NCBI GenBank assembly: GCA_029242745.1
Contig: JAQWTI010000026.1
Span: 1 to 64,000 of the forward strand
Length of the DNA: 64,000 bases
Source: Acidimicrobiales bacterium
GTDB taxonomy: Bacteria; Actinomycetota; Acidimicrobiia; Acidimicrobiales; MedAcidi-G1
Direction of reading: 5' to 3'
Part shown: in pieces, positions 14,207-58,069 of the stretch
How positions within the stretch are numbered: position 1 is the first letter of the stretch
Layout of the letters: every line of letters begins with the position of its first letter
Notes under the pieces: generated by a model
What the model saw: the letters and a program-made list of their open reading frames with translations, nothing else
Told to the model about the DNA's origin: nothing
Databases searched by the model: none
Translations under genes and position numbers: made by a program

Positions 14207-14659
14207 ATGCTCGAAGTAGGAACAAAGGCCCCTGATTTCTCGGTGCCTGATCAAGACGGTGAGTTGGTCACGCTTGACGGCCTTCGCGGCCACTGGGTGG
14301 CCTTGTGGTGGTATCCGATGGCTTCAACCCCCGGTTGAACGATTGAGGGAGGGGGGTTCCGTGATCGAACCCCAGAGTACGACGAGGCTGGAGCCATCAT
14401 TTTGGGAGCCAGTTTTGATACAGCGGAGGCGCAGAAGCACTTTGCTGACGACCAAGGTTTTCCCTACCGGCTCTTAGCCGATACGGATAAGACGATGGGG
14501 GAGGCCTACGACGTGGTGATGCCTGAGCACGGCCTACCTCTGCGGGTCACTTATCTAATCGACCCCGAGGGGACCATCGTGCGCTCTTACGACCTGACTG
14601 GCCAAGATAAAGAGGCTCACGCCGAGGCGGTGCTGGACGACATCCGGTTGCTCTCCTGA
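14207..14659 (+). CDS. selenocysteine-containing peroxiredoxin (PrxQ/BCP type), UGA at codon 44
   Basis: One reading frame of 151 codons with an in-frame TGA at 14336-14338. Reading TGA as selenocysteine gives 150 residues of thiol peroxidase: APDFSVPDQDG, WWYPMASTPG-Sec44-TIE, FRD at 51-53, ILGASFD and YLIDPEG. In ordinary BCP/PrxQ the motif is TPGCT, so UGA sits exactly at the peroxidatic cysteine. The usual second cysteine five residues later is Gly, so this would be a 1-Sec enzyme reducing peroxides with outside thiols. A SECIS-like hairpin starts 15 nt after the UGA. AGAGGAG lies 5 nt before the ATG. Selenoprotein peroxiredoxins are known in bacteria; a stop mutation is the alternative. 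Confidence 0.85.
14339..14373 (+). promoter_or_regulatory. bacterial SECIS-like element of the peroxiredoxin gene
   Basis: Directly after the UGA comes a 14-nt linker, then a perfect 7-bp stem (GGGGTTC 14353-14359 with GAACCCC 14367-14373) closing the 7-nt loop CGTGATC. The loop begins 21 nt after the UGA and has G in its second position. Both fit the general bacterial SECIS rules (loop roughly 16-37 nt downstream, G among the first two loop bases), so it could bind SelB. Confidence 0.75.
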
Positions 14660-55910: not shown

Positions 55911-57326
55911 TTAGGTCAGGTCGTCCGGCGTGGCGAACGTGCCGGTGATGGCGGTGGCCGCTGCGACGGCCGGTGAGACTAGATGAGTGCGTCCGCCGCG
56001 TCCCTGCCGGCCCTCGAAGTTGCGGTTGCTGGTACTGGCGCAGCGCTCACCGGCAGTGAGTTTGTCGGGGTTCATGGCTAGACACATTGAACAGCCTGGT
56101 TCTCGCCAGTCGAAGCCAGCCTCAATGAACACCTCGGGCAGGCCCTCGTTCTCAGCCTGGGCCTTGACGACCCACGAGCCGGGCACTACGAGGGTGCGTA
56201 TGCCGTCCTTCACCTTTCGACCCTTGGCTACCGCTGCGGCCGCCCGGAGGTCCTCAATCCGGCTATTGGTGCATGAGCCGATGAACACGGTGTCTACGGC
56301 TACATCGCGCATTGGGGTGCCGGCTGTCAGACCCATGTACTTAAGCGCTCGCGCTGCAGATTCCCGCTGGCTGGGCTCTTCAAAGGAGGCTGGGTCCGGG
56401 ATCTTTCCGTCCATTCGCATGACCTGGCCGGGGTTAGTTCCCCACGAGACGTGTGGGGTGATCTCTGCGCCATCGATCACGATCTCGTGGTCGAAGGTCG
56501 CGCCCTGGTCGGTGGCCAGCGTCCGCCAGTCCGCTACAGCTGCGGCCCAGTCGGCTCCCGAAGGGGCGCGCGGCCGACCAGCCAGATAATCGAAGGTGGT
56601 TTGATCAGGGGCGATCAGCCCGGCCTTGGCGCCCGCCTCAATGGACATGTTGCACACGGTCATCCGGCCCTCCATCGAGAGTTGGCGGATGACCTCACCT
56701 CGGTACTCGATGATTGAGCCGATACCACCGCCAGTGCCAAGGCGACCGATGATGGCCAAAATTACATCCTTTGCGGTCGAGCCCTCAGGAAGAGTGCCGT
56801 TGACGGTGACAGCTAGTGTGCCAGGACGCTGCTGTGGGAGTGTTTGTGTGGCCAGAACGTGTTCAACCTCGCTGGTTCCGATACCGAAGGCCAAAGCACC
56901 AAACGCCCCGTGGGTGCTGGTATGGCTATCTCCACAGACAATGGTCATTCCGGGAAGCGTCAATCCCTTTTCGGGGCCGATGACGTGGACGATGCCCTGG
57001 CCGGGATCACCCATGGGGTAGTTGGTAACACCGAACTCGTGGCAGTTAGATCTGAGAGTTTCTATTTGGATACGGCTGACCGGATCCGCAATGGGCAACT
57101 CAATTTCGGCAGTTGGAACGTTGTGGTCCTCTGTGGCTACCGTCAACTCGGGGTGACGTACCTTGCGGCCGGCCATTCGGAGCCCATCGAAGGCCTGTGG
57201 AGATGTGACTTCATGGATCAAATGCAGATCAATGAAGAGAAGGTCAGGTTCGCCATCCACATGGCGAACGATGTGGCGGTCCCATACCTTCTGGCTGAGG
57301 GTTCTGGGGCTATGGGAACCGGTCAT
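55911..57326 (-). CDS. leuC: 3-isopropylmalate dehydratase large subunit
   Basis: About 471 residues, aconitase superfamily. Fe-S cysteines are seen in [12 protein letters not shown] and GCSMCLAMN, with [42 protein letters not shown] and the C-terminal [21 protein letters not shown]. The ATG at 57326 is preferred because AGGAG lies 5 nt upstream; GTG at 57332 is in frame. It lies 101 bp downstream of the UGA-containing thioredoxin-like gene on the same strand. No separate attenuator was found ahead of it. Confidence 0.95.
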
Positions 57327-57427
57327 AGTCACTCCTGGACAAAGTGCCCGGCTGGGATTGGTCGGACAAGATCGCGCTCAGTCAGGATACGGCACAGGTC
57401 CGCTGTCGGCCCGATTAATCCCAGCAA

Positions 57428-58069
57428 TCACGTGTCTTCAGCCTTGGCCTCATCAATCAGGTCAAAGGCGCCTTTAGTGTCGATCTGACCAGTTGCCATG
57501 GCTAGCGAGCCGCCAGCGCTGACGGCGACAGCGGTCGGATGATCGAACACGCCAAACCGGATGTGCACCGGACCGTCGTCGACAATGTTGGGGAACCCAT
57601 TGATACCCCATTCCTCCGCAATCGTTATGGCGTAGTCCATCTGGTCGGAAGGAATCGTTGAGACTCCAATTACTGTGATTCCTGGAAGAGCGCTCAATTC
57701 GGCGACCGCCGAACTTTCTCTGCGGCATGTTGCTCAAGTAGGTGTCCAGAACCAGAACAGAACGTCTTTGCTGGCCAAAATCGTGCCATCGAACTGCTCG
57801 CCACCGATCAATGTGGCAGTGAATGCCAACTCATCTGGAATTTTATATGACGTTGAATTGGCCGCTTCTGCAGAGGTTTGGTCCGAAAACGAGTTCAGTG
57901 AAGGCTGGTTCATTTGGTCAGAAGTACCACCAGGTGACGCGAGTACCGGGGCAACTGTTGTGCCAACAGGTTTGACTAGCGGGGATTCAGGGCCCCCTGG
58001 CGAGCAGGCTGTGACTAGGAGGGCCAGACACAGCGTTGCGACTTTGATATCGACAGTGGGTCGGTTCAC
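57428..58069 (-). CDS. selenocysteine-containing thioredoxin-like (TlpA-type) lipoprotein, UGA at codon 112
   Basis: One frame of 214 codons with an internal TGA at 57734-57736, read here as Sec112. A signal ending in the lipobox LLVTAC (Cys22) is followed by a Ser/Pro/Thr-rich linker and a thioredoxin-like fold: VLFWFWTPT-Sec-ATC, i.e. Sec112-x-x-Cys115 where relatives have CxxC. Then come RRESSAVAELSALPGITVIGVST, the cis-Pro region FDHPTAVAVSAGG and DLIDEA. It should act outside the membrane in thiol-disulfide or peroxide chemistry. A SECIS-like hairpin follows the UGA. TAGGGT lies 6 nt before the GTG start. Alternative: a disrupted gene, which I consider less likely. Confidence 0.87.
57696..57715 (-). 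promoter_or_regulatory. bacterial SECIS-like element of the thioredoxin-like gene
   Basis: On the minus strand, AGTTCGGC pairs with GCCGAATT (8 bp, one G-U pair), closing the 4-nt loop GGTC. The loop begins 26 nt after the UGA and starts with G, within the spacing and loop rules for bacterial SECIS elements. Confidence 0.75.

Follow-up and report, generated by a model that had tools for sequence, protein, structure and literature searches.

The 64,000-nucleotide window analysed here, part of an Acidimicrobiales genome, almost certainly carries a selenoprotein gene: an in-frame UGA at codon 112 of a functional TlpA/DsbF-like gene is predicted to be decoded as selenocysteine (Sec) by SelB and a SECIS element. 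This reading follows from sequence comparison (the UGA, the SECIS and their conservation) together with a complete Sec machinery in the genome. The gene occupies 57428-58069 on the minus strand, where a single frame of 213 residues runs from a GTG start at 58069 to a TGA stop at 57430-57428 once the internal TGA is read as Sec. The predicted protein, MNRPTVDIKVATLCLALLVTAC-SPGG...LFWFWTPT-U-ATCRRESS..., comprises from N- to C-terminus a signal peptide with a lipobox, a linker that is unstructured in the model and a thioredoxin-like domain. Translation places the internal TGA (57736-57734, minus strand) exactly where the CxxC motif has its first Cys (WTPT-U-ATC), as the preliminary description of this DNA had claimed; the coordinates given there were correct, but the minus strand of the gene was absent from it. 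The presumed resolving cysteine of the UxxC motif, Cys115, is encoded at 57727-57725. In a plain list of open reading frames the gene is cut into pieces of 111 residues (57734-58069) and 89 residues (57428-57697), and it is thus an example of standard gene calling breaking a Sec gene into two frames. The terminal TGA must be a true stop, as TGA also is in most homologues, so that the reading of UGA in this gene would depend on context.

The host genome (G000; 2.44 Mb, 95% complete, a draft assembly of 55 contigs) encodes a tRNA-Sec (67.5 bits, above the Rfam cut-off, anticodon tca), SelA (E 3.6e-98), SelB on the same contig (265 bits, above the cut-off) and SelD (E 7.7e-103). This search bears out the earlier proposal that the organism uses Sec. 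The selD gene (L018:1501-2445; G000 C11:14443-15387) has an in-frame TGA of its own at HGAG-U-GCK, which we take to be the usual Sec site of that protein.

Homologues of the window protein are present in 92 of 149 related genomes, and the named records belong to Acidimicrobiales, Acidimicrobiaceae and 'Microthrix' metagenome-assembled genomes, several of them apparently marine to judge from isolate names. Each best match from the genus and the family has exactly one in-frame TGA. All of the 30 best genus and family loci that were extracted have the UGA at L[FL]WFWxPx-U-x-x-C; among 40 further loci, nearly all from the order level, 28 share this position of the UGA and the other 12 have Cys, and wherever a UGA occurs it lies at UxxC. 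The alignment across the UGA in relatives, suggested earlier as a check, therefore supports the Sec reading, and the homologues retain the thioredoxin half beyond the UGA. The half downstream of the UGA is translated and under purifying selection: for most of the closest pairs, dN/dS 3' of the UGA lies in the range 0.14-0.28, and it is below 1 in all pairs listed.

A hairpin with the features of a SECIS follows the UGA at 57715-57696 (minus strand). Its 8-bp stem (AGUUCGGC/GCCGAAUU) closes a GGUC loop (57707-57704) that starts 27 nt past the UGA, and the structure reported previously at this distance is real. As described in PMC1088965, a bacterial SECIS is a hairpin shortly 3' of the UGA whose small apical loop contains a guanosine, and the present hairpin fits these features. 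Among 25 distinct sequences from the genus and family, pairing in the stem amounts to 86.5% and 23 double-sided changes occur, a level reached by none of 500 shuffles. Across 50 sequences from the whole order, the stem has a covariation score of 0.429, whereas shuffles average 0.171 (0/500 as high), with 61 double-sided cells against 23 in shuffles, and sliding the partner strand by 1-3 columns yields at most 0.135. At one covarying pair, GC occurs 17 times, UA 17, CG 9 and AU 4.

The loop is also tied to the presence of Sec. GGTC is found in 51 of 58 Sec genes but in only 2 of 11 Cys genes, and the latter never form more than one stem pair at the hairpin position. The Val codon of the loop is GTC in 29/29 genes, whereas GTC makes up 41% of the other Val codons of the same genes, and the preceding codon ends in G in 28/29 against 26% elsewhere; the p-values of these codon comparisons are nominal, the related genes not being independent. 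Folding energy is unremarkable relative to shuffles (z -0.06) and uninformative, so the case for the hairpin rests on covariation and codon constraint. An Rfam scan of the window returned nothing, which does not count against a SECIS because bacterial SECIS elements are too variable. On this comparative evidence a SECIS role of the hairpin is well supported, the loop being kept in Sec genes and the stem pairs covarying. In seven of the 58 Sec genes, all from distant homologues, the loop differs from GGTC, and most of the seven lack this stem; their SECIS may be differently shaped or lie in another register. Six distant Sec homologues (L094, L095, L107, L108, L114 and L115) have no GGTC at +27 and at most one stem pair.

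These data bear on two readings in which the UGA does not specify Sec. That a Cys codon was turned into TGA in this one assembly, by pseudogene formation or by a sequencing or assembly error, could be entertained for a draft of 55 contigs; however, dozens of independent assemblies have the identical TGA at this residue, and the half after the TGA is under purifying selection, so this reading is scarcely credible and was rejected. The earlier argument that a chance stop is unlikely holds for this gene, given the 30/30 conservation of the UGA and the conserved, covarying hairpin. UGA reassignment is a known phenomenon in other bacterial lineages, and a genuine gene might have its UGA read as Trp or Gly, or simply read through. 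This second reading was likewise rejected as very improbable, because UGA-free homologues have Cys at the aligned position, a TGA also terminates this gene and most of its homologues, tRNA-Sec, SelA, SelB and SelD are all present, and Cys forms have lost the hairpin that Sec forms retain.

The predicted selenoprotein appears to be an exported lipoprotein with a thioredoxin fold. The sequence V-T-A-C at residues 19-22 (58015-58004, minus strand) fits the lipobox pattern [LVI][ASTVI][GAS]C by pattern match, with Cys22 as the predicted lipidation site. An equivalent is found in nearly all homologues: in most by pattern and in nearly all remaining Sec forms by eye, the N-terminus of L046 being cut off by a contig end. 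The lipobox noted in the preliminary description is thus conserved, and export and lipidation at Cys22 are probable. AlphaFold2 models a confident domain from residue ~80 (block mean pLDDT mostly 89-98), preceded by a low-confidence N-terminal part; together with Foldseek and phmmer this defines a TlpA/DsbE/DsbF-like thioredoxin-fold domain at residues ~79-210 (57835-57440, minus strand). The top Foldseek match is Mycobacterium tuberculosis DsbF (3ios; E 2e-13, TM 0.86 on target), followed by DsbE/MPT53 (1lu4; E 5.8e-13) and then by ResA and others; TlpA-like relatives among the matches include CcmG, ResA and TlpA-ScoI complexes. The same two mycobacterial proteins are recovered by phmmer (1.9e-14 and 2.2e-13). 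Positions W106, F107, W108, U/C112, C115 and P178 are invariant in the homologue alignment (A1), and P178 is likely the cis-Pro of the thioredoxin fold. In the model, a helix (113-126) begins directly after U112 and places the redox motif at its start, so that fold, motif and conserved proline are all those of a TlpA/DsbE/DsbF-like protein.

Pfam returns thioredoxin-family matches only below threshold, and the window protein stays under the NCBIfam cut-offs for DsbE (TIGR00385; 27 bits vs 123.15) and ResA (NF002854; 15.5 bits vs 170). No NCBIfam model is passed by the window protein or by four distant relatives. The best sequence and fold matches, M. tuberculosis DsbF (Rv1677) and DsbE/MPT53 (Rv2878c), share with it a single thioredoxin domain, an N-terminal extension, export (here predicted) and a W-x-P-x-C-x-x-C-type site, but have Cys in place of Sec and only ~29% and 28% identity.

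TlpA-like proteins with Sec in a UxxC motif have been described before, as has one family of thioredoxin-like (seleno)lipoproteins. The available text of a 2026 inventory of prokaryotic selenoproteins includes a thiol-disulfide isomerase-like protein (cd02966, UxxC), a UGC-containing TlpA and the DsbG-like NF041057 (UxxC) (PMC13188914), and that of a study of the GOS metagenomes includes Trx-like 1 selenoproteins (COG0526, UxxC) (PMC2398784). The cd02966 and GOS proteins resemble the window protein in having Sec first in UxxC, a TlpA-like thioredoxin fold and an occurrence in marine metagenomes (as far as the available text of PMC1088965, PMC2398784 and PMC13188914 describes them). They are set apart by these descriptions, which in the same portions of text are at family level and do not give an Acidimicrobiales distribution, a lipobox, leuCD linkage or this SECIS. 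NF041057, the family of Rcas_1661, is likewise a thioredoxin-like (seleno)lipoprotein, according to its NCBIfam name, with Sec or Cys, but the window protein does not match it at E<=1 and one relative scores 21.7 bits against a cut-off of 190. NF041054, a Sec-containing ResA-like WAxxUGC protein, differs in its Sec-Gly-Cys motif, and relatives of the window protein score 20-32 bits against its cut-off of 300. The present protein is accordingly filed as a new, unnamed, Acidimicrobiales-wide and putatively Sec-containing DsbF-like lipoprotein, set apart from the described examples by NCBIfam scores and descriptions. In the literature searched, nothing was found on DsbF together with selenocysteine or on selenoproteins in Microtrichales, and little on selenoproteins under Acidimicrobi- names. 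With this family, Sec would be found across a marine order of actinobacteria in a disulfide oxidoreductase that probably lies outside the cytoplasm, and the family yields a candidate SECIS with clear covariation from Acidimicrobiales lipoprotein genes.

The subfamily is well bounded, and since related genomes carry either a Sec or a Cys form, it is suited to studying the timing and causes of Sec-to-Cys replacement. At the order level, SelA is present in all 25 genomes in which a UGA copy was confirmed and missing from four of the six that have an LWFWAPxC Cys form as closest homologue (L096, L097, L098, L100, L101 and L106), an association with a Fisher p of ~5e-4, computed by hand. Three UGA-bearing genomes of the family have no SelA match; their assemblies are incomplete (69-88%). 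In a tree of 70 domains, a Cys clade (L096, L097 and L101, from G049, G091 and G052) is nested among Sec forms, and no SelA match was found in these three genomes; the clade likely reflects a change from Sec to Cys tied to the loss of Sec decoding. The well-supported branches of this tree, which is built from few columns and has some long branches, force at least four changes between Sec and Cys labels, and the two forms appear to have been exchanged repeatedly. A disulfide relay based on selenium outside the cytoplasmic membrane could, as a tentative generalization, be an old and widespread Acidimicrobiales trait, with the lipoprotein shifting between Sec and Cys as lineages lose the Sec machinery, and overlooked because gene callers halt at UGA.

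The gene is followed immediately downstream by leuC (55911-57332, minus strand) and then by leuD on the same strand, in every locus of the genus that was examined and also in near-family group g6. Co-transcription with leuCD was set aside as a hint to function, having no redox link. The genus members G004, G009 and G010 (L117, L118 and L116) lack the selenoprotein gene upstream of leuC yet keep SelA; the gene is therefore dispensable and not the sole reason for keeping Sec. The genome contains one gene for a CcdA/DsbD-type membrane protein (G000 C27:110329-111257), which adjoins a different, Cys-containing TlpA-like gene; the two are likely a cytochrome c maturation pair. No match to VKOR was found in this genome.

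The product would then be a disulfide oxidoreductase with a thioredoxin fold, akin to actinobacterial DsbF/DsbE (TlpA-like type), that is exported, anchored by a lipid and equipped with Sec as its attacking residue. SelB with Sec-tRNA would read UGA codon 112 by means of the GGUC-loop hairpin 27 nt downstream, and lipidation at Cys22 after export would leave the domain outside the cytoplasmic membrane. There, Sec112 would attack substrate disulfides and Cys115 would resolve the intermediate as a selenylsulfide. As for the direction of this chemistry, the presence of a CcdA-type protein and the lack of a VKOR match in the genome lead us to favour, with modest confidence, a reductase or isomerase recharged by the CcdA-type membrane protein over an oxidant, although the position of the only CcdA-type gene beside another, Cys-containing TlpA-like gene counts against such a supply. 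That the selenoprotein instead forms disulfides is suggested by its closest solved relatives, Mt-DsbE and Mt-DsbF, which act as oxidants in vitro in hirudin folding (PMC3853704). We consider this unlikely, though to be kept in mind, since the genome has the CcdA-type protein and no VKOR match. Selenylsulfides are, moreover, in general more reducing than disulfides, which again argues against an oxidant. A reductase or isomerase acting on general disulfides also has to be weighed against an enzyme devoted to a special substrate, for instance a copper chaperone, a peroxide or one of cytochrome c maturation. The range of TlpA-like relatives (CcmG, ResA, TlpA-ScoI complexes) and the dispensability of the gene speak for such specialization; but the expected cytochrome c maturation reductase is the Cys-containing TlpA-like protein encoded beside CcdA, and the conserved leuCD neighbours give no redox hint, so that we regard a special substrate as rather improbable.

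When the whole window was scanned by motif for frames with UGA read-through, many chance hits were returned, and the gene described here was the only one to combine a plausible motif with long halves and a hairpin that has a GG loop. The window also contains an AhpC/TSA-family peroxiredoxin gene (14216-14581, plus strand; 112 bits) with one in-frame TGA at 14336, and the earlier report of a second TGA-containing gene thus corresponds to a real match to the AhpC-TSA family. The thioredoxin-like gene, the peroxiredoxin gene and selD are independent Sec genes in one genome. The context of the peroxiredoxin UGA is TxxU (PMASTPG-U), and the bases 3' of this TGA are able to pair as a GGGGTTC/GAACCCC stem.
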